A stretch of 61,463 nt of DNA from Candidatus Peregrinibacteria bacterium (GCA_016220175.1 JACRHZ010000011.1:1-61463), one strand, 5' to 3'. Positions 25,598 to 57,597 are shown, counted from the stretch's first letter. Notes: a model not told the origin generated them from the letters alone. Translations and numbers: made by a program.

Positions 25598-28500
25598 ATG
25601 CCGTATTTTAACTCTGTGGATCCCAAGCAAAATTTCCCAAAATTAGAACAAGAGATTGTTGAATATTGGGAAAAAAATGATATTTTCAGAAAAAGTATCG
25701 AATCCCGTTCTGAGAAAAATTCGTATGTATTTTACGATGGTCCGCCGTTTGCAACCGGACTTCCGCATTATGGACACATTCTCGCGGGAACGATAAAAGA
25801 TGTCATTCCGAGGTTTTTTACCATGCGCGGAAAACGTATTCCAAGGCGATTTGGATGGGATTGTCATGGAATTCCTGTGGAATACCAAATTGAAAAAGAA
25901 AATAATATTGGCGGAAAGCCGGAAATTGAAAAAATGGGAGTGGGAAAATACAATGAACTCTGCAGAGGAATTGTTTTGAGATGCACAGAAGATTGGGAAA
26001 GAACCGTGACGAGAATGGGACGATGGGTGGATTTTCGAAATGACTACAAAACAATGGACGCGAATTTTATGGAATCCGTGTGGTGGGTATTTAAGTCTCT
26101 TTGGGACAAGGGCTTGATTTATGAAGGTGAAAAAGTCGTCGCGTATTCTCCAAAACTTGGTTCTCCACTTTCCAATTTTGAAGCGGGACTGAATTACAAA
26201 GATATTGATGATCCGGCGGTCACGATAAAATTTGAACTCAAAGATGAGCCTGGAACTTACATGCTTGCTTGGACAACGACGCCGTGGACGCTCCCACTAA
26301 ACTTAAGTCTTGCGGTGAATCCGAATCTTACGTATGTGAAAGTGAAATTAGAAGTATTTAAGGGTGAGGATGAAAATAGTATTTATAAATCTTCAAGCAA
26401 TGATATTGGAGAAGATGCCATTAAGAAACGTCCTGGAGGAAATGAAAATTTTATTCTTTCAGAAACTGTTTTTAATCAAAATATAGAAGATAAAGGATGG
26501 CTCAGACTGGCAGAAGTTGTCGAAAAATTTCCTGGGAAAAAACTCGTAGGAAAGGACTATTTGCCAATTTTCCCATTTTTCAAAGGTCATAAAAATGCCT
26601 TTCGTATCGCTCCTGCTGATTTTATCTCAGATGCAGAAGGAACAGGCGTGGTTCATATGGCCGCAACAGGAATGGATGATGTTCCTATTTTAGAAGAAGC
26701 TGGAATTGCACTTGTATATCCATTTGATGAAAATTGTTATTTCGATTTTTCAAAGGTGGAAACACATCCCGATGCGAAAAAAGAAATTGCTGAACTCACC
26801 GGAAAATATTTTCGATATGATCCAGAAGTTGCTGGCTCAGAAAAAGAAAATGCGAACGATTGGGTTCTTCAAAAACTCAAAGAATCCGGAGCTCTCGTGA
26901 AACGCGAACAAATTCGTCACAGCTATCCGCACTGCTGGAGAACAGATTCTGCACTTATGTATCGCGGAATAAATACTTGGTTCGTTCATGTAGAAAAAAT
27001 CAAAGACCGCATGGTCGAACTGAATCGACAAATTCATTGGGTTCCTGAAGCCGTTGGACAGAAACGATTTTCGAATTGGCTTGAGAATGCGAAAGATTGG
27101 GCGATTTCACGAAATCGATATTGGGGAACTTCCATTCCTGTGTGGAAATGCACTTCTTGCGGACACACAGAATGCATTGGAAGCGCTAAAGAACTTCAAG
27201 ACAAGGGTTTCAAAAATACGAAAGTTTTTGTCATGAGGCATGGAGAAGCGGAACAGAACGTGAAGGGATTTATTGATTCCGACAGATCGCATGAAATCCA
27301 TCTTACGGAAAAAGGAAAAGCAGAAGTTCGGAAAAATGCGGAAAAAATGAAAAATGAAAATATCACTGCTATTTTTTCGTCTCCATTTTTACGAACAAAG
27401 GAAACTGCTGAAGTTGTTGCGGAAAATATTGGATATCCAAAAAATAAAATTATTGTGGATGAACGGTTAAGAGAAATTAATTTGGGCAAAATGAGCGGAA
27501 AAAATCATAAAGATTTTAAAGCGCTTTTTCATTCGCCTCATGAAAGATTTTTTGGAAATCCCCATAAAGGCGAAGCCGAGAAGGAAGTATTTGAACGTGT
27601 CTCGGATTTTCTCAAAGAAATTAGTAGAAAATATTCGGGGAAAAATATTCTTATTGTCACTCATGGAGATCCCGCGAGAAATATCAGAAAATTTTTCACG
27701 AATGAAACTCCTGATGCTCTTTTTGATACTGAAGCGAAACTTCCACCACTTGGAAACTTTGCAGCATATTCATTTGAAAATCGCCCGACGAATCTTCAGG
27801 GAGAAATTGATCTTCATCGTCCATATATTGATGCCGTTGAACTTTCTTGCGAGAAATGCACATCGGTGATGAAACGAATTCCAGAAGTGCTCGATTGCTG
27901 GTTTGAAAGCGGTTCCATGCCGTATGGACAGGCGCATTATCCATTTGAAAATAAAGAACTTTTTGATCGCACCTATCCGGCGGATTTTATCGCAGAAGGG
28001 CTCGATCAAACTCGCGGATGGTTTTATACACTTCATGTTCTTGCAACGGCGCTTTTTGACAAGCCCGCATTCAAAAATATTATCGTGAATGGAATTGTTC
28101 TCGCGGAAGATGGACAAAAAATGTCGAAATCAAAAAAGAATTATCCAGATCCGCACGAAGTGTTTGAGAAATATGGCGTTGATGCCGTGCGATTTACTCT
28201 TATGAATTCGCCCGTTGTTCGCGCTGATGATCTTAAATTTTCTGAAAAAGCAGTTCTCGAAAATTTGAAAAGTATTTTCCTTCCGCTCTGGAACTCGTAT
28301 TCGTTTTTCGTGACGTATGCAAATATTGATGGATGGAAGCCTGAGAAGAAATCAGGTGGCGTACGTAGAGACAAGGCAATGCCTTGTCTCTACAAATTAG
28401 ATAGGTGGATCCTAACAGAACTCAGAGAGCTAATTCGAAACGTCACAGAACAAATGGAAAAATATGAAATTTCCTACGCTACACGAGCTGTTTCCGAATT

Positions 28501-29467
28501 CTTGGAAAAACTTACCAATGGTTACATCAGGCGCTCTCGAAGAAGATTTTGGAAATCCGGAATGGAAAAAGATAAAGAAGAAGCATTTCAAACGCTGTAC
28601 ATTGTGCTCACAAAGTTTTGCCAAGCGCTCGCGCCATTTTCTCCATTCATGACAGAGCATATTTATCAAAATCTGACGAAAGAAGAGAGTGTGCATCTTT
28701 CGGATTTTCCAGATTTTGAAAATCTTCCGGATGATCCGGAACTGAGGCAAGAATTTGACACAGTGGAAACCATTATTTCTCTCGGACTTTCTCTTCGCGC
28801 GGAGAAAAAAATCAAAGTTCGCCAACCGCTAGAGCTCGTGGAAGTTTCTCTGCCGCATGGAATTCCTCATAAAATTCTCAAACTCAATGAGGATGTGCTT
28901 CTCAGCGAACTCAACGTGAAAGAAATTAAAATGATTAAAAATGTTGAAGAAATTGCGAAGAAAATTGTAAAACCGAACGCGGCGATTCTCGGAAAAAAGC
29001 TTGGGAAAGATATGCAACACGTGATTCAAGAAGCGAAATCAGGGAATTTCAAAGAACTTCCCGATGGTGGAATTGAAGTAAATGGACATATTCTGACCGA
29101 TGGCGAATATGTGATGGAATATGTTTCGAATGAAGGACTCGATGTCACGTCTTCACACGGAATTGTGGTCGCGCTCGATACGAAAATAACGGAAGAACTG
29201 AAAAATGAAGGACTCGTCCGCGAACTCATTCGGCAAATTCAGGAACTCAGGAAAGAAGCGGGATTTGATGTGGCGGATAGAATTGAAGTGGGAATTTCGG
29301 CAAGTGCTGAACTTTTGAAAGTATTTGAGAAGTTTGAGAAAGAGATTGCGGTGGAAGTATTGGCGGAGAAGATGAGTTTTGGAAATGCAAAGATGGAAAA
29401 GGTGGATTTAGAGCATGAAATCGAGGTGGATGAGGAGAAAGTTAAAATTGTGTTGACAAAGACTTAG
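25598..29467 (+). CDS. ileS: Isoleucyl-tRNA synthetase with inserted histidine-phosphatase domain
   Basis: 1289 residues; IleRS is usually 930-1070. HYGH (57-60) is the HIGH motif and KMSKS is 841-845. Editing-domain residues and the two CxxC knuckles (CTSCGH, CEKCTS) are present. Between the first knuckle and DLHRPYIDAVEL lies an extra domain of about 190 residues (about 542-730). It has RHGE (547-550), SSPFLRTKETAE, an LREINLGKMSG block and VTHGD, the full catalytic set of the phosphoglycerate-mutase-like phosphatases. A 29-bp palindrome at 28365 adds RRDKAMPCLY (923-932) just before the anticodon-binding domain. It charges tRNA-Ile; the phosphatase role is unknown. Confidence 0.95.
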   Translation: MPYFNSVDPKQNFPKLEQEIVEYWEKNDIFRKSIESRSEKNSYVFYDGPPFATGLPHYGHILAGTIKDVIPRFFTMRGKRIPRRFGWDCHGIPVEYQIEKENNIGGKPEIEKMGVGKYNELCRGIVLRCTEDWERTVTRMGRWVDFRNDYKTMDANFMESVWWVFKSLWDKGLIYEGEKVVAYSPKLGSPLSNFEAGLNYKDIDDPAVTIKFELKDEPGTYMLAWTTTPWTLPLNLSLAVNPNLTYVKVKLEVFKGEDENSIYKSSSNDIGEDAIKKRPGGNENFILSETVFNQNIEDKGWLRLAEVVEKFPGKKLVGKDYLPIFPFFKGHKNAFRIAPADFISDAEGTGVVHMAATGMDDVPILEEAGIALVYPFDENCYFDFSKVETHPDAKKEIAELTGKYFRYDPEVAGSEKENANDWVLQKLKESGALVKREQIRHSYPHCWRTDSALMYRGINTWFVHVEKIKDRMVELNRQIHWVPEAVGQKRFSNWLENAKDWAISRNRYWGTSIPVWKCTSCGHTECIGSAKELQDKGFKNTKVFVMRHGEAEQNVKGFIDSDRSHEIHLTEKGKAEVRKNAEKMKNENITAIFSSPFLRTKETAEVVAENIGYPKNKIIVDERLREINLGKMSGKNHKDFKALFHSPHERFFGNPHKGEAEKEVFERVSDFLKEISRKYSGKNILIVTHGDPARNIRKFFTNETPDALFDTEAKLPPLGNFAAYSFENRPTNLQGEIDLHRPYIDAVELSCEKCTSVMKRIPEVLDCWFESGSMPYGQAHYPFENKELFDRTYPADFIAEGLDQTRGWFYTLHVLATALFDKPAFKNIIVNGIVLAEDGQKMSKSKKNYPDPHEVFEKYGVDAVRFTLMNSPVVRADDLKFSEKAVLENLKSIFLPLWNSYSFFVTYANIDGWKPEKKSGGVRRDKAMPCLYKLDRWILTELRELIRNVTEQMEKYEISYATRAVSEFLEKLTNGYIRRSRRRFWKSGMEKDKEEAFQTLYIVLTKFCQALAPFSPFMTEHIYQNLTKEESVHLSDFPDFENLPDDPELRQEFDTVETIISLGLSLRAEKKIKVRQPLELVEVSLPHGIPHKILKLNEDVLLSELNVKEIKMIKNVEEIAKKIVKPNAAILGKKLGKDMQHVIQEAKSGNFKELPDGGIEVNGHILTDGEYVMEYVSNEGLDVTSSHGIVVALDTKITEELKNEGLVRELIRQIQELRKEAGFDVADRIEVGISASAELLKVFEKFEKEIAVEVLAEKMSFGNAKMEKVDLEHEIEVDEEKVKIVLTKT
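28365..28393. repeat. Palindromic mini-element A, copy 1, in frame in ileS
   Basis: A 29-bp perfect palindrome: arm GTAGAGACAAGGCA, one central A, then the reverse complement. It is identical to copy 2 in priA, including the following AAATT, and copy 3 lies at 57569. It is read in frame and encodes RDKAMPCLY in a loop of IleRS. Confidence 0.9.
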
Positions 29468-29507
29468 GATGGTGATATAAATTCATCTTAATTTTTTATC
29501 TTTTATT

Positions 29508-30410
29508 ATGACTTCAGAAAATCCGCATACCACTACACACAGCCAATCCTATCCTCTTCAAGTTCAAGAAGTAGGAGGAGTATCTTCATCAGCTCCTCCT
29601 TCAGCACAAAAAACAGTGAAATTAGAAGATTCTCAAACTCCTACAGGTCCGCTTCAATCCCTTCGAGTTAAGTATCGTGGGTTTATAAATAGAATAGAAG
29701 AAGCAATCAAAGGGTATGTGGGCATAAAGAATCCGCCAGGTTCTGAGACACCAGATGAATTTCGAAGAGCTATGATAGTAACGGTTTTGTACAGTGCTAT
29801 TCTGGCTATCTCCCTAGGCACAAGCATGGAGGCCTTACTTCTATTGTCTGAAGACGAAGATGCAGAAACAAGAGAGAAAGAAAGAGCAATATTAAGAGCT
29901 CGCGAACAGAAGAAAGAAAGGGAAATAGTTTTAGAAAACATTGAAAATAACTGCAATAGACTTCTTACTGCAATTTTAGAACTCAGGCAAGAAGTAGGCG
30001 AAAAAGAATGGACTAAGAAAGATATAGTTGTTGCTCCTGCTTTTCTTGGGCCTGCACGTACTCTTGCTCAGGTTGCGCAAAGATTCGGAGAGAGACAAGC
30101 TGAATATGCGGGAATAGTAGGAGGCAATCAGATTGACTTTGGAAACTGGACTTCGATGGATCCAACGTATCAAGAGATTTCTAAACCTGTATCGTTGTAT
30201 ACTTCTGTAGAACTAGGAGGCCGCCCCGAAGAGATACCCCTTAAAATTAGATTATTGCCTCATTACGAGGCTCCTCTAAGAGAACCCTCCTTTGCTCAAA
30301 AATACCCTAATGCTACGGGTGTTATAGAAGGAACAGTTGCGATTGGTTTAGTTGGTCTGGGGACGTATCTAGAGCGTTTAAACAATTCTGAAACATCTTC
30401 TTCGGAGTAA
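29508..30410 (+). CDS. Hypothetical membrane-associated protein
   Basis: A 300-residue protein with no recognised family. A Ser/Thr/Gln-rich N-terminus (about 1-45) is followed by an amphipathic region, a hydrophobic segment (MIVTVLYSAILAISLGTSME near 91-110), a strongly charged coiled-coil-like helix (EDAETREKERAILRAREQKK onward), a soluble middle, and a closing hydrophobic stretch (VIEGTVAIGLVGLGTYL). It may be membrane-attached at both ends. It is followed by GC-rich palindromes rather than a clear T-tailed terminator. Confidence 0.6.
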   Translation: MTSENPHTTTHSQSYPLQVQEVGGVSSSAPPSAQKTVKLEDSQTPTGPLQSLRVKYRGFINRIEEAIKGYVGIKNPPGSETPDEFRRAMIVTVLYSAILAISLGTSMEALLLLSEDEDAETREKERAILRAREQKKEREIVLENIENNCNRLLTAILELRQEVGEKEWTKKDIVVAPAFLGPARTLAQVAQRFGERQAEYAGIVGGNQIDFGNWTSMDPTYQEISKPVSLYTSVELGGRPEEIPLKIRLLPHYEAPLREPSFAQKYPNATGVIEGTVAIGLVGLGTYLERLNNSETSSSE

Positions 30411-30486
30411 CTTTCGCGGTAGCACCTTTCGCGGGAGCCGGTGTTGGCAGGCTTTGGAGCTGGCCACCCGCTCCTTTTCTCTCAGC

Positions 30487-30511
30487 GGGAGCCGCCTTGT
30501 AGGCGGGTCCC
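30487..30511. repeat. GC-rich palindrome after the hypothetical gene
   Basis: GGGAGCCGCC and GGCGGGTCCC around a TTGTA loop, pairing except for one central mismatch. The surrounding stretch from 30411 is also GC-rich and hairpin-prone (GCGGGAGCCGG, GGCCACCCGC), unlike the AT-rich background. It could act as a terminator but lacks a T-run; more likely another palindromic element. Confidence 0.5.
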
Positions 30512-30525
30512 AAATGTTTGCTTAC

Positions 30526-30543
30526 TCACGCCAGGAGGCGTGA
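30526..30543. repeat. Short perfect palindrome upstream of the phd/relE pair
   Basis: TCACGCC-AGGA-GGCGTGA, a 7-bp perfect stem with a 4-nt loop, 26 nt before the -35 box of the next operon. It is part of a run of at least two hairpins in this spacer. Confidence 0.5.
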
Positions 30544-30569
30544 CCCACACAAAAAGTATTAAAATCTGC

Positions 30570-30598
30570 TTGCATAAAATATTCAAAATAGCTATTAT
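30570..30598 (+). promoter_or_regulatory. Promoter and operator of the Phd/RelE pair
   Basis: -35 TTGCAT (30570-30575), a 17-nt spacer and -10 TATTAT (30593-30598). An imperfect inverted repeat, ATAGCTAT with ATAGCCTAT, straddles the -10 (about 30589-30614) and is a likely site for antitoxin autorepression. The start would be near 30605, 20 nt before the ATG. Confidence 0.6.
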
Positions 30599-30625
30599 AT
30601 ACATATAGCCTATTTTATCCACAAC

Positions 30626-30883
30626 ATGAAAACTATTATTTCCGCAAAAGATGCGAAAAATAAATTTGGAGAACTCCTAGACACTGCACTTGGACAACCC
30701 GTAACAATTTCAAAACACGGTCGTGCCGTCGTTGTTCTTATCTCTCAAGCTGAATATGAGCGGCTTAAGATGTTTGAAGATGAATACTGGTTAGAACACG
30801 CTTTAAAAGTAAAGAAAACAGAGTATTTGGGAACAGAGGCGAGTGAGAAATTCCTTTCTGAGCTCATGAATGCTAAAAATTAA
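30626..30883 (+). CDS. Phd/YefM-family antitoxin
   Basis: An 85-residue protein. ISAKDAKNKFGELLDTALGQ and PVTISKHGRAVVVLISQAEYERL are the Phd/YefM fold, which binds DNA as a dimer. The C-terminal helix would cap the toxin. It overlaps the next gene by 14 nt, as is common in such pairs, and carries a promoter with an inverted repeat upstream. Confidence 0.93.
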   Translation: MKTIISAKDAKNKFGELLDTALGQPVTISKHGRAVVVLISQAEYERLKMFEDEYWLEHALKVKKTEYLGTEASEKFLSELMNAKN

Positions 30884-31148
30884 TATATCAAAACGCGTGC
30901 AAGAATTCCTGATGAAATTGCCTTCAAAACATGGCAAACAAATTGCTGTAAGAATGCATGCGCTTTGTAGAGATGGACATCTTCCAGACACTCAAAAACT
31001 TCGAACATCACATAAACCTTCATATTATCGAACAGATATTGGCGAGTATCGGATTGTTCACTATATTGAAAATAATGTACTTCATATCCCTCTTGTCGGG
31101 AAAAGAAATGACGATGACGTCTATCGAAAACTTTTCAGAAAATTATAG
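30870..31148 (+). CDS. RelE/ParE-superfamily toxin
   Basis: A 92-residue protein. KINISKRVQEFLMKLPSKHG, YYRTDIGEYRIVHYIENN and LVGKRNDDDVYRKL are typical of RelE-like mRNA interferases (R in YRTDIGEYRI and the final basic block). It completes the fourth toxin-antitoxin pair of the window. RelE rather than ParE is favoured by the GEYRIVH motif, but this is not certain. Confidence 0.88.
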   Translation: MLKINISKRVQEFLMKLPSKHGKQIAVRMHALCRDGHLPDTQKLRTSHKPSYYRTDIGEYRIVHYIENNVLHIPLVGKRNDDDVYRKLFRKL

Positions 31149-31231
31149 AACAAACTTTGCCTCAATCACACCGGGAGGTCTCCGGTCATTTCTGTCAAAC
31201 GACTCCACTGAGTTCTGGATGGTGGGATGCA

Positions 31232-31315
31232 ACTGCCAAGAATTGAACTTTTGTCCACAGGGTCACTTGTTGAACCATTTGGTAGTTGGTTCAAGATCAC
31301 GAAGGCCTTGGCAGA
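31232..31315 (-). other. Structured, possibly tRNA-derived region
   Basis: Nested perfect inverted repeats: CTGCCAAG (31232) with CTTGGCAG (31308), enclosing TTGAACCA and TGGTTCAA around a 9-nt loop. Read on the minus strand it includes GTTCAATTC, a T-loop-like sequence, and TGCATCCCACCA just beyond. A normal cloverleaf cannot be drawn. It may be a degenerate tRNA or another structured RNA. No protein gene explains this 250-nt spacer. Confidence 0.35.
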
Positions 31316-31398
31316 CGAAAATTTTCTATGCTTCTATTATTATCTTAGTGATAACTCCTCCAACTGGAAAGGAATAGTGCATGAAGTTTTACCTGAAA

Positions 31399-32064: not shown

Positions 32065-32119
32065 AAATGATTTCTTAAGTGGAAAATATTATAATAATAT
32101 TTAGTCAATATGTCAATTT

Positions 32120-32195
32120 TGGTGGACCCGACTGGACTTGAACCAGTGACCAACCGGTTATGAGCCGACTGCTCTAACCACTGAGCTACGGGTCC
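32120..32195 (-). tRNA. tRNA with CAT anticodon (Ile2 or elongator Met)
   Basis: A complete cloverleaf on the minus strand: acceptor GGACCCG/CGGGTCC, anticodon stem GTCGG/CCGGT with loop CTCATAA, T-arm ACTGG-TTCAAGT-CCAGT, discriminator A and encoded CCA. It is not an initiator (G1-C72 pairs). The sequence resembles tRNA-Ile2 (lysidine-modified) more than elongator Met, but anticodon alone cannot decide. A broken copy lies upstream. Confidence 0.93.
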
Positions 32196-32232
32196 TAAAA
32201 AAGTATAATGTGTTGTTAAGAATCTCATCACC

Positions 32233-32302: not shown

Positions 32303-32380
32303 ATATGATCGGCGATAGTATAAATTGTTCAGAGAAGTTATGGAAGTTTTATTTTTTGAATTTGAGACAAGCTCGAATCA

Positions 32381-33187: not shown

Positions 33188-33305
33188 GTGAAGGAGAAAA
33201 TTACAAAATAAAAAATTAAGCCCGTCTACTATAGAGGAAGATACACTTTATTCAAAAGGATTTTGGAATTAGAAGAATTATGTGCAACTCAAATTACTCG
33301 CAAAA

Positions 33306-35309: not shown

Positions 35310-37499
35310 ATGTATACTGACATCATTCCCCATCGGTCTCTCCCTTTTGGAAGCGGAAAAATTACATTCTCTGTTCCTGAAAAATTAAAACCCAATATTC
35401 ACGTGGGACAAATTGTCGAAATTCTTTTGCGCGGAAGGCGAGAGCAGGGCTGTATCATCGATATTTTTCAAAAACACCCAGATTTTGATACGGTAGATAT
35501 TTTGAGGATACTCACTCCACAGATACTTTCAAAAAAAAGTATTGATTTTCTGGAACAAATCACCGAATATTACTTTTCGTCATATTCGAAAGCGCTTTTT
35601 CTCATGATTCCTGAAAAGATGTGGAAAAGTGATGGAATTCCGCCAACGGAATCATATTTGGTAAAGACGCGATTCATCGCGTCTCCACGTGGGACAAAAC
35701 AAAAACTCATTTTTGAAATTCTCGAAAAAAATTCTGGAAAAATGCCAGAAAAAAATCTTCGAGAAATGGCTCAAGCATCTTCTGCAGTTATTACGAATCT
35801 TCTCGAAAAGGGTCTCATGAGGAGAACTCTTGAAGAATTTATTACTCCAAAAATTCCAGAAAATTTCAATGCCTTTCCAGAATTTACAAAAGATCAAAAA
35901 AAGATTTTCACCGAGATGAAATCATCAAAAAAATCACTTTTGATGGGACCCGCGGGATCTGGAAAAACACTTCTCGCACTCAAACACGTTGCGGATGAAA
36001 TCCTGAAGGGAAAACAGGCTCTTTTTCTCGTTCCAGAAAAATTTATTTCCGCATCTTTAATTGAACTTTTTTCTCGGTTTTTTCCGAGAGAAATTTTTGA
36101 ACTCTATCATTCTGGACTTTCCGAAGGCGAAAAATGGAATATTTGGTGGAAAGTGAAAACAGGTCGGCTCAAAATCATCTTTGGAACTCGCGCGGCACTT
36201 TTCCTTCCATTTGAAAATCTCGGAATTGTGGTGGTAGATGAAGAACACGATACTTCGTATAAAAATGATCAAGCGCCGAGATATCATGTGCGAAAAGCCG
36301 CAGAAATGCTTGCGGAAATTCATGATGCGCAGCTGATTTTGCAAAGCGCGACACCGAGTCTTGAGGCCTATTATTTAACAAATACCATTTTTCATAGTGG
36401 TAGAGACAAGGCAATGCCTTGTCTCTACAAATTGTTTACATTAGAAAAACGATTCGGAAGTGACTTCCCTCCTAAAATCAATATTGTTGATCTTCGTGAA
36501 GAACTCCAACGAAAAAATTTTTCTCCATTTTCACTTCTTCTTCAGAAAAAGATTCATGAATGTCTCCAGAAGAAAAAACAGGTGCTTCTTTTTTTGAATC
36601 GTCGGGGAAAAAATTCTGCATTGGTGTGTCGTGAGTGCGGAATTTCTGTGACGTGTTCGAATTGTAAAAACCGAATCACGATTCATGAAGATCGCAATAA
36701 AAATGAATTTCTCCTCTGTCACCATTGTGGACAAATGGACAAGATTCCTTTCTCTTGCTCCAGATGCAATTCCACGAAACTCAAAGGCTTTGGTGTAGGA
36801 ACTCAAGAACTCGAAAAAGAGGCGAAAAAACTTTTTCCTCATGCAAAAATTCTTCGGGCGGATAGTGATTCAACAGCGCGAAAAAACGCATCCGAATTTC
36901 TTCTGGAAGAATTCTCTTCGGGAAAAGCGGATATTCTCATCGGAACCCAAATTATTGGAAAAGGAATTGATATTCCAAATATTGGACTCGTGGGAATTTT
37001 GCTCGCGGATATTGCGTTTCATCTTCCTGATTTTCGCGCTTCGGAATACGCATTTCAAATGCTCAGCCAAGTGGCGGGACGCACTGGACGAAAAGGAGAA
37101 GAAGGCGAAACTGTACTCCAAACCTATCTTCCTGAGCATCCCGCTGTCCAATTTTGCGGAAAACATAATTTTCAAGAGTTTTATGACCAGGAAATGATGG
37201 AAAGAAAATCGCTTTCTTTTCCGCCATTTACAAAGAGTATTCGACTGATTTTTGTGGATTATTCTGAAAAAAAAGCGAAGGAAAAATCGGAAAAATGGAA
37301 GGTCCGACTTGTAAAAAAATGGCACTCACTTTTTCCAAAAGAACACTTTTTTATTTCCTTGGCTCCGGCGATGACAAAGAAGCAACATGACAAATTTCAC
37401 TACCATATTTTCATTATGGGAAATCATCCAGAATGGCTTCTTAATGCCGAAAATTTGAGCGGAATTCGCATCGACAGAGACCCTGTCGACAGCTTTTGA
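35310..37499 (+). CDS. priA: Primosomal protein N' (replication restart helicase PriA)
   Basis: A 729-residue helicase. N-terminal DNA-binding and winged-helix regions are followed by Walker A GPAGSGKT (about 213), VVDEEHDTSY, SATPSLEAYY, and a zinc-binding block of eight Cys (CREC, CSNC, CHHC, CSRC), then GTQIIGKGIDIPN and QVAGRTGRKGEEG. It reloads the replisome at stalled forks. Two palindromes are read in frame: VKTRFIASPR at 118-127 and RDKAMPCLY at 365-373. Both fall in loops between conserved blocks, so the core is intact. Confidence 0.95.
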   Translation: MYTDIIPHRSLPFGSGKITFSVPEKLKPNIHVGQIVEILLRGRREQGCIIDIFQKHPDFDTVDILRILTPQILSKKSIDFLEQITEYYFSSYSKALFLMIPEKMWKSDGIPPTESYLVKTRFIASPRGTKQKLIFEILEKNSGKMPEKNLREMAQASSAVITNLLEKGLMRRTLEEFITPKIPENFNAFPEFTKDQKKIFTEMKSSKKSLLMGPAGSGKTLLALKHVADEILKGKQALFLVPEKFISASLIELFSRFFPREIFELYHSGLSEGEKWNIWWKVKTGRLKIIFGTRAALFLPFENLGIVVVDEEHDTSYKNDQAPRYHVRKAAEMLAEIHDAQLILQSATPSLEAYYLTNTIFHSGRDKAMPCLYKLFTLEKRFGSDFPPKINIVDLREELQRKNFSPFSLLLQKKIHECLQKKKQVLLFLNRRGKNSALVCRECGISVTCSNCKNRITIHEDRNKNEFLLCHHCGQMDKIPFSCSRCNSTKLKGFGVGTQELEKEAKKLFPHAKILRADSDSTARKNASEFLLEEFSSGKADILIGTQIIGKGIDIPNIGLVGILLADIAFHLPDFRASEYAFQMLSQVAGRTGRKGEEGETVLQTYLPEHPAVQFCGKHNFQEFYDQEMMERKSLSFPPFTKSIRLIFVDYSEKKAKEKSEKWKVRLVKKWHSLFPKEHFFISLAPAMTKKQHDKFHYHIFIMGNHPEWLLNAENLSGIRIDRDPVDSF
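35661..35688. repeat. Degenerate palindromic mini-element in frame in priA
   Basis: Arms GTAAAGACGCGA and TCGCGTCTCCAC around TTCA; they pair with two G-T type mismatches. The GTA-AGAC start and TCT-C-AC end make it a relative of element A with a different core. It encodes VKTRFIASP. Confidence 0.7.
36400..36428. repeat. Palindromic mini-element A, copy 2, in frame in priA
   Basis: Identical over all 29 bp to the copy in ileS (arm GTAGAGACAAGGCA, central A), and the next 5 bases AAATT are also the same. It is read in the same frame and gives the same peptide, RDKAMPCLY, placed between the helicase motif with SATPSLEAYY and the strand TLEKRF. Confidence 0.92.
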
Positions 37500-38555: not shown

Positions 38556-39206
38556 TTAATAACGAGCGAAATGCATCCGAGGATCTTCTTCGAATTTTCT
38601 AAAAAATTCATTCATAAGCTTTTTATCCTCACGATCAGGTTCCCAGTTTTTCGGATTATTTTCAATGTATTCGGCAATTACCGCATATTCACGATCATTG
38701 CGGATGATGCGATCGTAGTAAGAGCGTTGCCAGGCAAAGGAGGTATTTGGGAATTGTTTGTTTATGATCCTCGTAACAGATGACTTAAAACCATGAATAA
38801 CTCTTGGCAAAATCATATTTGCTCGACGAATTCGTAGGGGCGGCAGATCTGCCGCCCCTACGTTTGGGTTTCTTACCACTATATCTTTATCTTTATTTAA
38901 TTTTTTTGCCATTAATTTTTCATTTATAAAAAACTCATCCTCAATCATCACAATGCCATGCACATGATCTGGCATCACCACAAATACATCGATACTCACA
39001 TTTGGAAAATGCTTCGGAATCTCATTCCAACATTCATACACAACATTCCCAACTGCGGAAATACACATTTTTTCATTTCGAATCTCACCAAAAAACTCTT
39101 CTCTATTTTCTGTACAAATCGTGACAAAATAATACCCTGGATCACTGTAATTATATTCCTCAAGCCGGACTAATTTTCGCCGGTTTTCAGGCATGTTATT
39201 TTCCAA
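38556..39206 (-). CDS. REP-associated tyrosine transposase (RAYT, Y1/HUH fold)
   Basis: A 216-residue protein. H81 and H83 in MPDHVHGIV form the HUH metal site, and the catalytic Tyr is Y163 or Y164 in WQRSYYDRIIRN. YYFVTICTENR and YIENNPKNW are family markers. RAYTs cut single-stranded DNA and are thought to move REP palindromes. Its start overlaps the tpiA end by 11 nt and it ends 2 nt before map, so it sits inside a housekeeping operon. A palindrome is read in frame and encodes VGAADLPPL (116-124). Confidence 0.93.
   Translation of the reverse strand: MENNMPENRRKLVRLEEYNYSDPGYYFVTICTENREEFFGEIRNEKMCISAVGNVVYECWNEIPKHFPNVSIDVFVVMPDHVHGIVMIEDEFFINEKLMAKKLNKDKDIVVRNPNVGAADLPPLRIRRANMILPRVIHGFKSSVTRIINKQFPNTSFAWQRSYYDRIIRNDREYAVIAEYIENNPKNWEPDREDKKLMNEFFRKFEEDPRMHFARY
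38834..38861. repeat. Palindromic mini-element in frame in the RAYT gene
   Basis: A 28-bp perfect palindrome: arm GTAGGGGCGGCAGA followed directly by its reverse complement. The GTAG and CTAC ends match element A, but the core differs. It lies in a poorly conserved loop of the transposase, between its HUH motif and its catalytic Tyr. Confidence 0.88.
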
Positions 39207-49264: not shown

Positions 49265-52200
49265 TTACGATTCGTGTTTTTCAAAATATCGTCTTCGGTA
49301 AATGCTTCCCGCTGGGATAAGCTTGCCAATAATAACATTTTCCTTTAGACCGTCAAGATGATCTATCTTCCCCGTTGTGGCCGCACTTACGAGTACTCGA
49401 ATTGTTTCTTGGAATGATGCCGCTGAAAGCCAAGAATCTGTAGCAAGAGAAATTCTTGTGAGTCCCAAAATGAGTTGTTCGTAGCGTGGAGGTTTTTTCT
49501 TGGGATGTTCTTTCTTGAAAATTTTAATTCTTCGATACTCAATAATTTCTCCAGGAAGAACATCGAGCATATCGGCTTGATCAATAATTCTCACACGAGA
49601 AAACATTTCTCGAACAATGATTTCGATATGCTTATCGTTAATAGTTTGCCCCTGAGAAGCGTAAATATTTTGAACTTCACTCGTAATATATTTCTGGACA
49701 ATATTTGTATCTGTTTTTTCCAAAAGTTCACGAAGATTGTAATGACCATACGTAAGCGGAGTTCCTACTTGTACAAATGTTCCCGTCTCTACCTTGAGCA
49801 TATCCCCAGAAGGGAATGAGTACTTCCTTTCTGCTTTTTTCGTGTGCTTTACAACAATTTTCCTTTCAGTGACTTCAATTACTTTCCCTCCATAGATTGC
49901 TCTCAAAACTTTTTGATCTTTCGCAAGAATTTGATTTTCTTTTACAAGATCGCCCTCTTTTACTGACACTTTTGCTCCATCAGAGATGTGATACTCATCC
50001 TGACCAAGTTTCTGTGCCTTAATGTGAGCAAAAACTTCATGTTCTCCTCTTTCTATGATGACTTCTCCCTCTACATCAGCGAGTGTGGCCGGAGTTTTTG
50101 GGGGTCTTGCTTCAAAAAGTTCTTCTACGCGTGTAAGACCTTGGGTAATATCCGCTCCTTCCGCCACTCCTCCCATATGAAATGTTCTCATGGTAAGCTG
50201 AGTTCCCGGTTCTCCGATGCTCTGCGCTGCAATGATTCCTACAGGAGTTCCGATCTCAACAGTTCTGTTGGAACCGAGATCTCTTCCATAACATTTTTGG
50301 CAAATTCCTCCCGGAGTTTCGCAGTTCATGATGCATCGTACCCTAAGCGTTTCAACTTTTCTTTTTGAAATTTCCCCCACAAGACGATTTCCGATTTCTT
50401 CATTTCTCTTCGCAATAATCTCCTTTGTTTTCGGATCCAGGAGATCTTCCGCCAAAGTCCTGCCATAAATTCTTCTCTCAAATTTTTCTCCGATTTTTTC
50501 AGAATCTTTTCTCGAAATTTCCAAATATGCAACGCTCTTGCAATCTTCTTCTCGAATGATAATATCCTGAACCGCATCGACAAGACGTCTCGTAAGATAT
50601 CCTGCTTCTGCAGTCTTTAAAGCTGTGTCCGACTTTCCTTTTCGTCCTCCATGCGTCGCAATAAAATACTCCAGAATAGAAAATCCCTCTTTCAAATTCG
50701 CCTTAATGGGAAGTTCGATTGTTCTTCCTGAAGGACTTGCTACAAGTCCCTTGATTCCGCAGAGTTGCGTTACTTGTCCCCAATTTCCTCGTGCTCCTGA
50801 ATCGATCATATAGAAAATATCATTTTCTGGAAAGTGTTTATAATTCTCAATCATCACCACAGAAATATCTGATTTCGCCTGCGCCCAAATTTTAATTGCA
50901 TTGTTATAGCGTTCTTCATCAGTAATGAGTCCATTCCAATATTGTGTCCCGATTCTTAATACCTTTTGAGTCGCCTCCTCAAGAATTTTTTCTTTTTCCT
51001 TCGGAATTTTCATATCGTTCATTCCAATAGTAATTCCTGATTTTGTTGCATATTCAAATCCCAACTTCTTAATTTTATCCGTGATGGACGCCGTAACTTC
51101 AGTATCAGAAAGATCATAAATTTCAGAAATAATACGCTCAATTCGGTTTTTGTTGACGACTGAATTTTCAAAGGGAATATTGTCCGGGAGAATTTTATTG
51201 AAAATCACTCTTCCTACAGATGTCTCGATGATTTGTCCATCGACACGAATCCGTACTTTTGCCTGAAGATCAACGTGTCCACTCTCATAAACAAAAATAG
51301 CTTCCTCTTCCGAAGCGAATGCCATTCCCTCGCCTTTTTTCCCATCATGAATTTGTGTCAAGAAATAGACACCGAGCACCATATCCTGAGTTGGCGTAAT
51401 AATAGGTTCTCCGGAAGAAGGCTTGAGAAGATTGTGACTCGAGAGCATAATTTCTCTCGCTTCTCTCTGTGCTTCTGTTGAGAGCGGAAGATGTACCGCC
51501 ATTTGATCTCCATCAAAGTCCGCGTTAAATGCGGCGCAAACGAGTGGATGAATTTGAATTGCTTTTCCTTCAATAAGAATCGGAGAAAATGCCTGGATTC
51601 CAAGTCTGTGAAGAGTCGGAGCACGATTAAGGAGCACGTACTTTCCCTTAATCACGTCGTCCAAAATATCCCAAACGATTTTCTTTCCCGATTGGATAAT
51701 TTTTTCTGCTCCTTTCACGTTGTGGGCAAATTCTCCTCGAATAAGTTCTCCGATAATAAACGGTTTAAAGAGCTTCATTGCGAGCTCTTTCGGAAGTCCG
51801 CATTGGTGGAGTCCCAACTCTGGACCGATGACGATCACAGAACGTCCCGAGTAATCAACACGTTTTCCCAAAAGATTTTGCCGAAAACGTCCTTGTTTTC
51901 CTTTGAGCATATCAGAAAGCGAACGAAGTTTTCGGCGATCACCAGAAGTGAATACCGCACGTCCTCCTCGAGAAGAATTATTGAGCAGTGTATCAACAGC
52001 TTCCTGAAGCATACGTTTTTCATTCCGACAGATAACTTCCGGAGCCCCAATAGCAATAAGCCTTTTGAGACGATTATTTCTATTGATAATTCTTCGATAG
52101 AGATCATTGAGGTCTGAAGCAGCAAACCTTCCCCCATCAAGCTGTACCATTGGACGAAGATCCGGAGGAATCACTGGAAGCTCTTTGAGAACCATCCATT

Positions 52201-53113
52201 CCGGAAGAATTCCGGCACGTTTCAGAGATTTGAGAAAACGTATTCTTTTCAATGTTTTTTTCTGCTTTTGTCCTGTAGCATCCACCACTTCTTCTTCGAG
52301 TTCTTCAATGAGCTCGTCCATTTCAACTTGCTCGAGAATGACACGAAGGCTCTCCGCTCCCGTTCCTGCTTTAAACACATGTCCGAACTTCATATTGAGT
52401 TCGCGGTATTCAAGCTCCGTCATGAGTGTCCATTTTTGGATAGATTCGAGTTCTTTACGGGCTTTGTCATGAGTTTCTTTCAGCTCTTCTATCTTTTTTG
52501 CTTTTTCCGCTTCAAACGCATCAACGTCTTCCTCAGATAGTTTTTTCTTTTGCTTCATCTGAGAAAGCTCATCTTTATATTCATCCATGATTTTCTTTCG
52601 ATACGTTTTGTATTGATTTTCCAAATCTTCGAGTGCTTCCGTTTTGGCGTGCTCATCAACAGAAATCACAATGTAGGAAGCAAAGTAAATAATTTGTTCG
52701 AGTCCTTTCACCGGAATATCGAGAACAAGTCCGATGCGTGAAGGAGTAGAACGGAAAAACCAGGTGTGTGCAACGGGAACTGCGAGAGAAATATGTCCCA
52801 TTCTCTCTCGCCTCACAATTGCACGAGTTACTTCCACACCACATTTCTCACAAATCACTCCTTTGTATCGAATTTTTTTATATTTTCCGCAGTAACATTC
52901 CCAGTTTTTTGTGGGTCCAAAAATTCGTTCACAAAAAAGTCCGTCAAGTTCCGGTTTTTGTGTACGGTAATTAATCGTTTCTGGCTTCGTTATTTCTCCG
53001 TGCGACCACGAGAGAATCATCTCCGGAGAAGCAACCTTGAGCGCTACGGCATTGAAACGATCGCTTCTTTTACTGTTTTGAGGATGAGAAGAGTACATAT
53101 GAGAAAAATGCAA
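49265..53113 (-). CDS. rpoC: RNA polymerase beta' subunit
   Basis: 1282 residues. N-terminal zinc ribbon (CYCGKYKKIRYKGVICEKCG), NRAPTLHRLGIQAF, the catalytic NADFDGDQM and the trigger-loop region with GEPGTQLTMRTFHMGG are present. The second zinc site (CxxxxxxGxCQKCYG, in RCIMNCETPGGICQKCYGRD) is intact. Normal rpoB-rpoC adjacency is broken by an ssb gene. An ATG at 53098 (MYSSHP) is an alternative start. Confidence 0.97.
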   Translation of the reverse strand: MHFSHMYSSHPQNSKRSDRFNAVALKVASPEMILSWSHGEITKPETINYRTQKPELDGLFCERIFGPTKNWECYCGKYKKIRYKGVICEKCGVEVTRAIVRRERMGHISLAVPVAHTWFFRSTPSRIGLVLDIPVKGLEQIIYFASYIVISVDEHAKTEALEDLENQYKTYRKKIMDEYKDELSQMKQKKKLSEEDVDAFEAEKAKKIEELKETHDKARKELESIQKWTLMTELEYRELNMKFGHVFKAGTGAESLRVILEQVEMDELIEELEEEVVDATGQKQKKTLKRIRFLKSLKRAGILPEWMVLKELPVIPPDLRPMVQLDGGRFAASDLNDLYRRIINRNNRLKRLIAIGAPEVICRNEKRMLQEAVDTLLNNSSRGGRAVFTSGDRRKLRSLSDMLKGKQGRFRQNLLGKRVDYSGRSVIVIGPELGLHQCGLPKELAMKLFKPFIIGELIRGEFAHNVKGAEKIIQSGKKIVWDILDDVIKGKYVLLNRAPTLHRLGIQAFSPILIEGKAIQIHPLVCAAFNADFDGDQMAVHLPLSTEAQREAREIMLSSHNLLKPSSGEPIITPTQDMVLGVYFLTQIHDGKKGEGMAFASEEEAIFVYESGHVDLQAKVRIRVDGQIIETSVGRVIFNKILPDNIPFENSVVNKNRIERIISEIYDLSDTEVTASITDKIKKLGFEYATKSGITIGMNDMKIPKEKEKILEEATQKVLRIGTQYWNGLITDEERYNNAIKIWAQAKSDISVVMIENYKHFPENDIFYMIDSGARGNWGQVTQLCGIKGLVASPSGRTIELPIKANLKEGFSILEYFIATHGGRKGKSDTALKTAEAGYLTRRLVDAVQDIIIREEDCKSVAYLEISRKDSEKIGEKFERRIYGRTLAEDLLDPKTKEIIAKRNEEIGNRLVGEISKRKVETLRVRCIMNCETPGGICQKCYGRDLGSNRTVEIGTPVGIIAAQSIGEPGTQLTMRTFHMGGVAEGADITQGLTRVEELFEARPPKTPATLADVEGEVIIERGEHEVFAHIKAQKLGQDEYHISDGAKVSVKEGDLVKENQILAKDQKVLRAIYGGKVIEVTERKIVVKHTKKAERKYSFPSGDMLKVETGTFVQVGTPLTYGHYNLRELLEKTDTNIVQKYITSEVQNIYASQGQTINDKHIEIIVREMFSRVRIIDQADMLDVLPGEIIEYRRIKIFKKEHPKKKPPRYEQLILGLTRISLATDSWLSAASFQETIRVLVSAATTGKIDHLDGLKENVIIGKLIPAGSIYRRRYFEKHES

Positions 53114-53198
53114 AATGAAGAATGAAAAGTGTGTTTATAAGAAAACTGTATTCTGTTCCGCGGATACGACGATTTTATAATATCTAAGATTCATCTAT

Positions 53199-53666
53199 TT
53201 ACTTCTCCGTCGTAGTTTCGGAAGAAGGAGCATCTGCAAAAAAGTCATCATCGTAGTCAGTTGGGGTGGGAGTCAAAGTGCTCACACTTGGTGATGCTTC
53301 TTCATGAACTACTTCTGGAGGAGTATCATTCTGTACTCTTTTTTCGAGCATAATCATGTCAGAAATGACAATTTCTGTTCGGAAAACTTTCACGCCTGAC
53401 TCGTGATCCCAAGAACGAGTCTTCAGATATCCTTCGAGATATACGAGTTTTCCTTTTTTTAAATACTGAATACAAAGTTCCGCAAGGCGTCCCCATGCCA
53501 CCACATTATGATATTCTGCAAGTGATTTTTTTTGTCCATCACTGCCAGCCCATTCACGATTTGTGGCAACTCCAAAAGTTGCTATTGTTTGTCCCGAAGA
53601 AGTTTGCCGCATTTCTGGGTCCCTCGTAACATTTCCGACAATTATAACCTTATTCACGCTTCTCAT
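53199..53666 (-). CDS. ssb: Single-stranded DNA-binding protein (one OB fold)
   Basis: A 155-residue SSB. SVNKVIIVGNVTRDPEMRQT, FGVATNREW, HNVVAWGRLAELCIQYLKKG and VYLEGYLKTRSW form the OB fold (1-108). The tail is Pro/Thr/Asp-rich. It ends in ETTTEK rather than the usual acidic DDIPF tip, so partner binding may differ. It sits between rpoB and rpoC, 46 nt after rpoB and about 85 nt before rpoC, on the same strand, which is unusual. Confidence 0.93.
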   Translation of the reverse strand: MRSVNKVIIVGNVTRDPEMRQTSSGQTIATFGVATNREWAGSDGQKKSLAEYHNVVAWGRLAELCIQYLKKGKLVYLEGYLKTRSWDHESGVKVFRTEIVISDMIMLEKRVQNDTPPEVVHEEASPSVSTLTPTPTDYDDDFFADAPSSETTTEK

Positions 53667-53712
53667 AAAAAAATGTTAAAAGAATAAAAAGTGAGAATAC
53701 AGAGCCGAAAAA

Positions 53713-56700
53713 TTATTTTTCCTCCTCTTTTTCTGCCTCTTCATCAACGGAATCTTCCTCCTCGCTTTGAGATTTTTTCTTAGCGATTTCATCGCCGTGA
53801 ATTTCTTTCTCAATCATTTTTTCTGACTCAGCGATATTTTCCGTAAGTTCTTCCATCTTGTCTGTTTCTGGGATAATATCTTCCACCGCTTCTTCTGGAG
53901 GAAGTTCTATGTGCTCAATTTCTCCTTCTTTTTCTTCCATGAGATCAACATCAATACAGAGGGATTTAAGTTCATGCACAAGAACATTAAAAGACTCTGG
54001 TGTATTTGGCTTTCGAATGGACTCCGCCTTGACAATACTTTCATATGCCTTTGCCCTTCCGACCACATCATCTGATTTAATCGTGAGCATTTCCTGGAGC
54101 GTATGTGCTGCTCCGTATGCCTCGAGTGCCCATACTTCCATCTCTCCAAACCTCTGTCCTCCATGTTGAGCCTTTCCTCCGAGCGGTTGCTGGGTTACGA
54201 TAGAATATGGTCCCACTGATCTCGCGTGGAGTTTATCTTCCACCAAATGAGAAAGTTTCATGATATAGGCAAATCCTACTGTTGTTTTATGTCCGAATGC
54301 TTCTCCTGTACGACCATCATAGAGCTGTACTTTGCCATCTTCTGGAAGTTCAGCACATTTCAGAAATTGAGTAATCATATCCGGTGAAATTCCATTGAGC
54401 ACTGGAGTCGCAAAACGAACGTTTAATTTTGATGCAACCCATCCCAAATGTGTTTCGAGAATCTGCCCAATGTTCATTCGAGAAGAAACTCCAAGAGGAT
54501 TCAAGATAATGTCAACTGGGGTACCATCCGGCAAGAATGGCATATCCTCAACTGGCACAATTTTAGAAACTACTCCTTTATTTCCATGTCTTCCCGCCAT
54601 TTTATCTCCTACCTGAATTTTTCTTGTCTTTGCAACAAACACTCGAACCTGTTTTATCACCCCTTGGGGAAGGTCATCTCCTGCATCACGTGAAAAAATT
54701 TGGATATCAACCACTTTCCCTCCTTCTCCTCCGGGAAGACGAAGCGAAGTATCTTTTACATCTTTCGCCTTTTCTCCAAAAATTGCTTGGAGAAGTCTTT
54801 CTTCAGGAGTGAGTTCTGTTTCGCCTTTTGGCGTAATTTTTCCGACCAAAATATCGCCTTCCATTACCATGGAACCAATACGAACAACTCCATCTGAATC
54901 GAGATCTTTTAACTTTGTACTTCCTACATTTGGAATATCGCGAGTTATCATCTCCGGACCGAGCTTTGTGTCACGAACATCAATAGTAAAATTTTCGATG
55001 TGGATAGAATCATACACCGCATCTTTCACCATGCGATCCGAAAGAATGATCGCGTCTTCAAAGTTGTATCCATTCCACGGCAGATAAGCTACCAGAAGAT
55101 TTCTTCCGAGCGCCACTTCCCCTTTCTCAACGGAGGATCCGTCAATCAGAGGATCTCCCTTTTTTACTTCTTGTTTCCGAGAAACTGTTGGTCGCATATT
55201 GAAACACGTTGCTTGATTTGATCTCACAAAATTATTGAGCTCATAGGTTTTTTTGTTTCCACTTTCATACAGTACAGTAACTTGCGTTGCATCCACACTC
55301 GTCACTTCTCCATCTTCTTCTGCCACAACCGCCTGTCCTGATGCTCTCGCAACCTCTCCTTCAAATCCTGTTCCTACAAGAGGCGTCTCAGGACGAAGAA
55401 GCGGAACTGCCTGACGTTGCATGTTTGATCCCATCGAAGCACGAGTATTATCGTCATGCTCAAGAAACGGAATGAGCGCTGTTGTTTCAGAAATAATTTG
55501 TTTGGGAGAAATATCGATGTGGGTAACGTCCAAATTATGAACGAGCGTCGCTTCTCCATTTTTTCGAGCTGATACTTGCGAATCGAGGAACTGCCCGAGT
55601 TCGTCGATTTCTGTGTTTGCCTGAGCAACAACAAAATCTTTTTCCTCATCAGCGTCATAATATTTTACTTCATCGGTGAGATAAGCGCGAACTCGAACTT
55701 CTTTTCTGCTTTTTTCGGCAAGAAGTTTGCTCGCCATTTCATTCGTAATTCGACTTCCAGCTCTTCCCACTTTTGCGATATTTTCTTCAAGAAAACGACC
55801 GACTAGGTGCTTCTTTTGGCTCGGAACAAGATTTGAAATTGTTCGAAATGGAGTTTCGATGAATCCGTAGGAATTTACTTTTGCGTAGGTCGCAAGGTGA
55901 ACGACAAGTCCGATGTTTGGACCTTCTGGAGTTGAAATCGGACAAATTCTTCCATAGTGAGAAGCGTGTACGTCACGAACATCAAAGCTCGCACGCTCTC
56001 TCGAAAGTCCTCCTGGTCCCATTGCTGAAAGTCTTCTTTTATGCGACAACTCGGCGAGAGGATTTGTCTGATCCATAAACTGCGAGAGTTGTGAACTCGC
56101 ATAAAACTCTCTCATCGCTGCGGTAATTGGACGGGAATTAATGAGTTGTGTAGGAGTAACCGTTTCGAGATCCACCACCGTCATGCGATCTTTGGCAATT
56201 CGGTCAGTTCGCATGAGTCCAACACGAAATTTGTTCTGTACAAGTTCTCCAACACTTCGAACACGTCTGTTTGAAAGGTGGTCAATGTCGTCTGTTAAAG
56301 GCTTTTTGTTGTTCAGATCAATAAGTTCACGAAGAATATGAATAAAATCTGACACCTGGAATGTTCTGTGAGCGAAGTCGTTTGGATAACTTGTTCCGAA
56401 ACGTTTGTTGAGTTTATATCGAGCAATTGGTCCCATGTCATACCTTTTGAAATCATGGAACATGGCATCAATCAAAGATTTCGCGTTCTCTGCTGTTGCG
56501 AGATCTCCTGGACGAATTTTTCGATAAATCGATTGGTACGCCTCCGGAACTGTTTTTACCGCATCTCTTTCGAGTGTTTGCAAAACACCATTCGATTCCA
56601 CATTCATATCCTCAAATATTTTTCTAATTTTCTCATCAGTGTCATATCCAAAAACTCTGAGGAGATGGGTTACTGGAATTTTCCTTTTGCGATCAATTTT

Positions 56701-57303
56701 TACAGTGATAACTCCCTTTTTATCGGTTTCTACTTCAAGCCATACACCTCGCTTAGGAATAACTTTGGCATTGTACGCTCCTGGTACCAGTGGATTTTTT
56801 GAGAAAAAAGCTCCGGGAGAACGTACAAGCTGATTTACGACAACTCGCTCAATTCCATTGACCACAAAAGTTCCCTTCGTGGTCATGAGCGGAATTGCGC
56901 CCAAAAATACTTCTTGTTCTTTAATTTCTCCTGTTTCTTTATTCACGAGTTTTACACGCACTTTGAGATTTGCCTCATAGGAAACGTTTTTTCTCTTCGC
57001 TTCTGATGCGGTAAATTTTGGTTTATCGTACGAGTGCTTCAAAAAATAAAGCTCCATCTTTTTCCCAGAAAAATCCGTGATGGGGGACACCTCTTCGAGG
57101 AGTTCTTTAATTCCATCTTGCAAAAACCAGTCATAGGAATTCACCTGGACTTCAATGAGCCCGGGGAGAGGATACGAATCATCGTCGCCTTCTGTAAAAA
57201 AAAGCCTCCCGTGGTCATTCTTGAGAAGAGGGAAGGGAAGATTTTTGAGAGAACGAGAAGATGAAATTGACAAAGACGAAGAAGAAGTGTGCTTCCGAGC
57301 CAT
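53713..57303 (-). CDS. rpoB: RNA polymerase beta subunit
   Basis: 1196 residues. Rif-region motif SQFMDQTNPLAELSHKRRLSAMGPGGLSRERA, the clamp GDKMAGRHGNKGVVSKIVP and the C-terminal HGGQRFGEMEVWALEAYGAAHTLQ are seen. The extreme C-terminus is a long acidic tail (EEDSVDEEAEKEEEK). First gene of the run; a strong TTGCAT/TACAAT promoter and a leader hairpin lie upstream. Confidence 0.97.
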   Translation of the reverse strand: MARKHTSSSSLSISSSRSLKNLPFPLLKNDHGRLFFTEGDDDSYPLPGLIEVQVNSYDWFLQDGIKELLEEVSPITDFSGKKMELYFLKHSYDKPKFTASEAKRKNVSYEANLKVRVKLVNKETGEIKEQEVFLGAIPLMTTKGTFVVNGIERVVVNQLVRSPGAFFSKNPLVPGAYNAKVIPKRGVWLEVETDKKGVITVKIDRKRKIPVTHLLRVFGYDTDEKIRKIFEDMNVESNGVLQTLERDAVKTVPEAYQSIYRKIRPGDLATAENAKSLIDAMFHDFKRYDMGPIARYKLNKRFGTSYPNDFAHRTFQVSDFIHILRELIDLNNKKPLTDDIDHLSNRRVRSVGELVQNKFRVGLMRTDRIAKDRMTVVDLETVTPTQLINSRPITAAMREFYASSQLSQFMDQTNPLAELSHKRRLSAMGPGGLSRERASFDVRDVHASHYGRICPISTPEGPNIGLVVHLATYAKVNSYGFIETPFRTISNLVPSQKKHLVGRFLEENIAKVGRAGSRITNEMASKLLAEKSRKEVRVRAYLTDEVKYYDADEEKDFVVAQANTEIDELGQFLDSQVSARKNGEATLVHNLDVTHIDISPKQIISETTALIPFLEHDDNTRASMGSNMQRQAVPLLRPETPLVGTGFEGEVARASGQAVVAEEDGEVTSVDATQVTVLYESGNKKTYELNNFVRSNQATCFNMRPTVSRKQEVKKGDPLIDGSSVEKGEVALGRNLLVAYLPWNGYNFEDAIILSDRMVKDAVYDSIHIENFTIDVRDTKLGPEMITRDIPNVGSTKLKDLDSDGVVRIGSMVMEGDILVGKITPKGETELTPEERLLQAIFGEKAKDVKDTSLRLPGGEGGKVVDIQIFSRDAGDDLPQGVIKQVRVFVAKTRKIQVGDKMAGRHGNKGVVSKIVPVEDMPFLPDGTPVDIILNPLGVSSRMNIGQILETHLGWVASKLNVRFATPVLNGISPDMITQFLKCAELPEDGKVQLYDGRTGEAFGHKTTVGFAYIMKLSHLVEDKLHARSVGPYSIVTQQPLGGKAQHGGQRFGEMEVWALEAYGAAHTLQEMLTIKSDDVVGRAKAYESIVKAESIRKPNTPESFNVLVHELKSLCIDVDLMEEKEGEIEHIELPPEEAVEDIIPETDKMEELTENIAESEKMIEKEIHGDEIAKKKSQSEEEDSVDEEAEKEEEK

Positions 57304-57349
57304 AACTTGAAAAAATAAAGAAGGAGGAATATCACGGGAAAACCCGAAC

Positions 57350-57398
57350 CAAAGAGCTCATGAGGCGGACCATTGCTTTCTCATCTGAGCGCTCTTTG
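57350..57398 (-). promoter_or_regulatory. Hairpin in the rpoB leader
   Basis: Perfect inverted repeat CAAAGAGC (57350-57357) and GCTCTTTG (57391-57398), extended by CTCATGA with TCATCTGAG inside. It lies within the predicted rpoB 5' leader, about 45-95 nt before the start. It has no T-run next to it. It could be a site for autoregulation or an attenuator; the function is not shown by sequence. Confidence 0.45.
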
Positions 57399-57449
57399 TG
57401 TCCTTCTTTTCAGAACTCAGTCAGTACGAAAGGATACATAAGCGGAAGC

Positions 57450-57477
57450 ATTGTACGGATTTACGAGGGGAATGCAA
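57450..57477 (-). promoter_or_regulatory. Promoter of the rpoB operon
   Basis: Read on the minus strand: -35 TTGCAT (57472-57477), a 16-nt spacer and -10 TACAAT (57450-57455). The start would be near 57443, giving a leader of about 140 nt. The same -35 (TTGCAT) is used at thrC and at the Phd/RelE pair. Confidence 0.65.
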
Positions 57478-57568
57478 GTAAAATTTTAAATTTTGAAAAA
57501 AATCATTTTGGTTGACGGTAGAGAAAAAAGCCAGAGAAATCTGGTTTTCTGAAATTGGTGGTGCAAAT

Positions 57569-57597
57569 GTAGAGACAAGGCATTGCCTTGTCTCTAC
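57569..57597. repeat. Palindromic mini-element A, copy 3, intergenic
   Basis: The same 29-bp palindrome as in ileS and priA but with T as the central base, that is, in the opposite orientation. It lies between the rpoB promoter and the MscS-like gene. The rest of this spacer (57304-57676) holds the rpoB promoter and leader, and an extended -10 TGGTATCAT (hexamer 57646-57651) that may serve the MscS-like gene. Confidence 0.9.

Follow-up and report, generated by a model that had tools for sequence, protein, structure and literature searches.

In this work, we have asked how one 29-bp palindrome comes to lie at three places in a stretch of 61,463 nucleotides from a Candidatus Peregrinibacteria bacterium (the window, by which we mean this whole stretch), and why at two of them it is read as part of an unrelated essential enzyme, IleRS and PriA. 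Our analysis makes it very probable that the palindrome is a mobile, non-autonomous double-foot GTAG REP, which a cognate subclass 2.4-like TnpA_REP encoded on another contig of the genome (C55) would mobilise, and which survives in reading frames as probably neutral peptides.

Copies of the palindrome in the window and in the genome

The three palindromes noticed in the first-pass annotation are all present (Table 1): a search of the window recovered the exact arm, GTAGAGACAAGGCA, and its reverse complement at each place, and every further match of the arm in the window has at least three mismatches. The copy outside genes occupies part of a 373-bp gap, bounded by the start of rpoB (minus strand) at 57303 and by an ORF at 57677.

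Table 1. Genes and palindromes of the window discussed in the text.
Feature	Coordinates	Strand	Remarks
ileS, isoleucyl-tRNA synthetase	25598..29467	+	TIGR00392 8e-259, above cut-off; one copy inside
Double-foot GTAG REP in ileS	28365..28393	+	29 bp, central A, in frame, RDKAMPCLY
priA, primosomal helicase	35310..37499	+	TIGR00595 1.5e-148, above cut-off; PDB PriA 4nl4 7.7e-94; one copy inside
Double-foot GTAG REP in priA	36400..36428	+	29 bp, central A, in frame, RDKAMPCLY
REP-associated tyrosine transposase (TnpA_REP/RAYT), subclass 2.4-like	38556..39206	-	PF01797 3.5e-10, above gathering score
Internal palindrome of this transposase, GTAGGGGCGGCAGATCTGCCGCCCCTAC	38834..38861	-	between HuH and Tyr motifs
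Double-foot GTAG REP, intergenic, upstream of rpoB	57569..57597	-	29 bp, central T instead of A on the + strand

Extending the arm search to the whole genome (1.49 Mb in 79 contigs) gave 16 copies of the family on 12 contigs, with perfect arms on both sides in 14 and a single changed base in the other two; the arms are separated by one central base (29 bp) or by none (28 bp). The genome also holds sister subfamilies, which have the outer eight bases, GTAGAGAC...GTCTCTAC, in common with this family and carry different inner hexamers (GCGATT, GTTGCA, GTAGCA, AATTCA and GCGCTA); the GCGATT palindrome alone is present in five perfect copies. A reversed control pattern found zero matches in the same genome, and therefore the repeats are not due to chance.

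Seven of the 16 copies lie in reading frames, namely those of ileS, priA, rsmF, ribD, pfkB, trpCF and the transposase gene on contig C55, and nine are intergenic. With 88% of the window being coding, this is a deficit of genic copies (binomial p about 2e-5), which matches the prediction of selection against disruption.

The ileS and priA copies had been described as identical together with five flanking bases. They do have AAATT in common, on the right side only, and such sharing turned out to be ordinary: in a comparison of 28 flanks from 14 copies, at least five bases were common to three further pairs. We have for this reason rejected the shared bases as part of a longer element, with one exception. 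Two other copies (L017 and L024, on contigs C44 and C62) have 11 bp of their left flank in common (TAATCAATTTT), beyond chance expectation, which may reflect either a shared context or a co-mobilised flank. No consistent target-site duplication, of the kind left by a MITE of a DDE transposon, was found in the flanks of the copies.

Transposase genes and their internal hairpins

Which enzyme could move such an element? The genome contains nine Y1_Tnp matches, and five of them are of one REP-associated type. The Y1 HuH transposase core is present in these, with PF01797 matches over the gathering score and NF047646 matches of 50-74 bits, below the 80-bit cut-off (1.8e-16 and 60 bits for the transposase of the window). 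The W motif, WQ, is found in all five, and the Y motif reads YIENNP, YIQNNP, YIINNP and YIQNNP in four and YIQYNP in the C55 protein; the HuH motif is NHIH in the proteins of contigs C49, C72 and C75, EHLH in that of C55 and DHVH in that of the window.

Each of the five genes encloses a GTAG hairpin in the part of its coding sequence that runs from the HuH to the Tyr motif. In the C55 gene it is the identical 29-bp palindrome, with a hairpin strength of about -23 kcal/mol, and a second copy lies ~600 bp upstream; because of these two copies we consider the C55 gene the likely mobiliser. The transposase gene of the window, whose neighbours read as map and tpiA (names from sequence), does not carry the 29-bp element; its internal palindrome has feet of the same GTAG...CTAC type as that of C55 and is nearly single-copy in the genome, and therefore an internal palindrome need not spread. 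The genes on C49, C72 and C75 contain single-foot GTAG REPs, with GTAGGGGCAGGC-type hairpins, a relative of the C75 type being found in rsmF, and queE (contig C57) holds an AATTCA palindrome together with a copy of the palindrome from the window transposase gene that differs at one foot base. For the sister palindromes, such as GCGATT, no cognate gene was identified in this assembly. The arrangement is not that of an IS200/IS605 insertion sequence, a transposase gene between left- and right-end hairpins that is repeated as a unit, since the C55 gene has the palindrome both upstream and inside, and since the five genes differ from one another. As a separate observation, a second, unrelated palindrome family, GAAGGCGACACGGCGCCGTGTCGCCTTC, has eight matches in the genome, some of them within or next to genes for a different type of Y1 transposase (L056:1798-1825, L058:1046-1073 and L058:1437-1464), and on contig C6 a further Y1 transposase gene has a GGAGCAACTCT hairpin to either side (L060:1009-1034 and 1745-1770).

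The association between gene and hairpin was found again in 80 homologue loci, which represent many phyla: 64 of them contain an internal palindrome with arms of at least 10, compared with 37 of 1251 control windows taken from these loci. Because the query for these homologues contained the peptide and similarity to it set their ranking, the sample may be slightly biased; the class search gives the same picture. Pooling the 80 loci with the class search and this genome, keeping genes with recognisable motifs and removing duplicates, yielded 93 genes, in 85 of which the strongest hairpin falls between the HuH and Tyr motifs, an interval that makes up 39% of the gene. The strongest hairpin reaches -14 kcal/mol in 78 of the 93 genes, and the codon-shuffled mean does so in 4. 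A tree of the transposase core without the loop, quickly made and with many weak branches, requires 34 changes of the inner hexamer, whereas none of 1000 shuffles needed fewer than 40. Of 17 loci with further copies nearby, 9 have the internal hexamer in those copies too; random pairing would give 1.7. Judged from these comparisons, the hairpin type follows the transposase phylogeny. Vertical inheritance of one internal insertion was rejected, as neither presence nor phase of the palindrome tracks the core tree: its presence changes 29 times versus 30, and its phase 8 times versus 9.3, a value as low being reached in 145 of 1000 shuffles.

Of the 192 genomes compared from the class of this bacterium, 58 contain similar palindromes. 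In 47 genomes these are accompanied by C55-like transposases, in 11 and 17 one of the two occurs alone, and 117 have neither (odds ratio 29, p=4.6e-20, a statistic that ignores the relatedness of the genomes). The first-pass annotation had spoken of a CPR-like genome, and this is supported, as the class includes genomes matching records named Gracilibacteria and Peregrinibacteria. The transposase cores L145 (Candidatus Gracilibacteria) and L151 (Candidatus Peregrinibacteria) are identical to those of the class genomes G070 and G076, and TGA is read through in some class members, from which we infer a Gracilibacteria-like class of the candidate phyla radiation.

Could the palindromes be RNA elements instead, that is, terminators, mRNA stabilisers or protein-binding hairpins under selection for expression control, with the coding copies, those of the transposase genes among them, acting in the mRNA? 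The strength of the C55 hairpin and the intergenic position of 9 of the 16 copies would suit such a role, and GTAG REPs, which often follow a gene, are likely to be transcribed (PMC3733652). Yet copies lie deep within unrelated genes that have no function in common, the inner sequence differs between sister subfamilies, and the hairpin type tracks the transposase lineage and not the host gene, so that we regard this explanation as improbable.

Reading frames, insertion sites and encoded peptides

As had been noticed, the copies in ileS and priA have one reading frame in common, both being in phase x|GT AGA GAC, and would add RDKAMPCLY at aa 924-932 of IleRS and aa 365-373 of PriA. The third protein with this peptide, the C55 transposase, had escaped the first-pass annotation, as had the transposase gene of the window and the other interrupted genes. 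The third phase of the element reads TAG, which leaves two of the three phases open, and therefore the shared frame is weak evidence and the recurring peptide unsurprising. The other in-frame copies encode VETRHCLVST (rsmF), GETRHALSL (ribD), VETRQCLVST (pfkB) and RDKALSCLY (trpCF). The reading frame of pfkB is interrupted ahead of the insert in this assembly, and the gene may be a pseudogene or contain a sequence error. TrpCF also carries two sister palindromes, read as VETRLIASL and VETRYSASL; this TrpC-TrpF fusion protein (L072:1733-3250) has three in-frame palindromes from three subfamilies.

Both insertions had been placed between conserved blocks, and alignment bears this out: across the class, in 29 homologues of IleRS and 29 of PriA, the two sites are length-variable regions, RDKAMPCLY is absent, and no conservation of its residues where the palindrome is absent was found. 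The nearest ileS and priA homologues in the class are too diverged for comparison at the nucleotide level. Alignment to solved PriA places extra residues at the insert site, and in an AlphaFold2 model of PriA, built on 26 class sequences (mean pLDDT 85; just 35 without an alignment), the insert is the least confident part of an otherwise good prediction, with pLDDT below 50 at residues 365-367, where the peptide starts. Two further observations concern IleRS. In several class members (G012, G024, G013 and G025) the IleRS match is broken by ~500 extra bases at the point of the palindrome (28300-28400 of the window). In addition, aa 544-710 of the protein correspond to an embedded histidine phosphatase domain (PF00300, 7e-36), and RHG[EQ] motifs are also found in the ileS stretches of ~11 of the 29 class relatives; our literature search found no paper on a histidine phosphatase domain inside an isoleucyl-tRNA synthetase.

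One might take RDKAMPCLY, identical over nine residues in IleRS, PriA and the C55 transposase, for a selected functional tag common to several proteins. This is very unlikely, since the palindrome is read in the other frame in RsmF and PfkB, TrpCF carries a sister palindrome read as VETRLIASL, recurrence is expected with two open phases, and the peptide is absent from every class homologue checked. That the repeats were copied or misplaced through an assembly or binning error is scarcely credible even for a draft metagenome-type genome in which repeats can promote misassembly, the copies lying within single intact housekeeping frames and on several contigs, the genome being 96% complete with 0.3% contamination, and similar palindromes being present in other genomes of the class.

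How is the reading frame kept? A length of 29 bp is not divisible by 3, and what is gained on insertion has to be one or two bases more or less than that. A case in point is YggS of class genome G051, which has an in-frame REP of 28 nt and exceeds the homologues of the congener G026 and of the sister-genus genome G014 by 10 codons. In a second congener, G035, that loop is occupied by a different palindrome (loci L288 for G051 and L300 for G035), and a third, G044, has none, as is the case for other homologues; YggS thus shows independent gains at one loop within one genus. By this comparison, a 28-nt palindrome seems to bring a net gain of ~30 nt, and in that way an insertion would leave the reading frame undisturbed; the extra bases are not a target duplication.

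We return to the reading of the palindrome as a transposase-mobilised REP. TnpA_REP enzymes cleave single-stranded REPs beside the hairpin and join them in vitro (PMC8266576). In this organism, the single-stranded hairpin would be mobilised by a cognate HuH-tyrosine transposase, most likely the product of the C55 TnpA_REP gene, and hairpin-adjacent cleavage followed by strand transfer would place the element at many sites without duplicating its targets. Where it landed in an exposed loop and one or two compensating bases preserved the frame, it could then survive in an essential gene, and the surviving insert would be translated as a short, probably neutral peptide such as RDKAMPCLY. A bolder and tentative hypothesis, which we put forward as possible and rather less than probable, is that the REP in subclass 2.4 genes is not accidental and represents a maintained cognate master copy: one gene would hold both enzyme and substrate, could re-seed a genome after transfer and would be refreshed by repeated insertion into its own loop, the decoration of essential genes being a by-product. 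The link between internal hairpin, transposase lineage and dispersed copies suggests a simple sequence-based prediction of a transposase's cognate repeat, and the same link makes the question of how REP transposases spread repeats easier to test.

Comparison with known systems

The close parallel with Rickettsia palindromic elements that had been drawn at first is not borne out. Those elements are likewise inserted in frame into many protein-coding genes, as are seven copies of our element into unrelated ones. However, CGTC is the tag of RPE-4 and RPE-6 of R. conorii, and repeats with this tag lack associated transposase genes (PMC3733652), whereas the element described here, unrelated to them in sequence, has GTAG/CTAC ends and a transposase gene with the same palindrome. 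The Rickettsia parallel is functional only.

With the E. coli TnpA_REP (PDB 4ER8), the HuH-Y1 core of the C55 protein can be aligned on both sides of a variable loop. The two blocks are 8 residues apart in the E. coli enzyme and ~70 in the C55 protein, the REP-encoded stretch included, and the E. coli REPs are bulged and single-footed, in contrast to the double-foot element found here. Also similar are the intragenic GTAG REPs described by Di Nocera et al. 2013 (PMC3733652), whose host genes often serve DNA replication, repair or tRNA functions, since here too GTAG palindromes lie in frame inside replication, repair and tRNA-related genes; those families have an unpaired GTAG at one end, while our element is fully symmetric.

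In subclass 2.4 of the TnpA_REP proteins, canonical long and double-foot REPs lie in frame in the transposase genes, between the HuH and Y motifs (Quentin et al. 2018, PMC6006769), and REPs inside transposase genes are thus already described and cannot be claimed as unreported. Our elements resemble this subclass (group 4 of Bertels) in the 5' GTAG and complementary 3' CTAC, in the in-frame REP between HuH and Y, in the presence of both double-foot and canonical long types, in the WQ and YIxNNP-like motifs and in being scattered across phyla. They differ from it in the EHLH of the C55 protein and the DHVH of the window protein, set against the subclass pattern NH[IFV]H, in their candidate-phylum host and in the several housekeeping genes that are decorated. 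The element is a further case of an already described kind of mobile repeat, double-foot REPs in subclass 2.4 genes and intragenic GTAG REPs; what this work adds to the known cases are the cognate-type tests and several decorated core genes, which extend transposase-linked double-foot REPs to a Gracilibacteria-like candidate-phylum genome with repeat-encoded peptides in several core enzymes.
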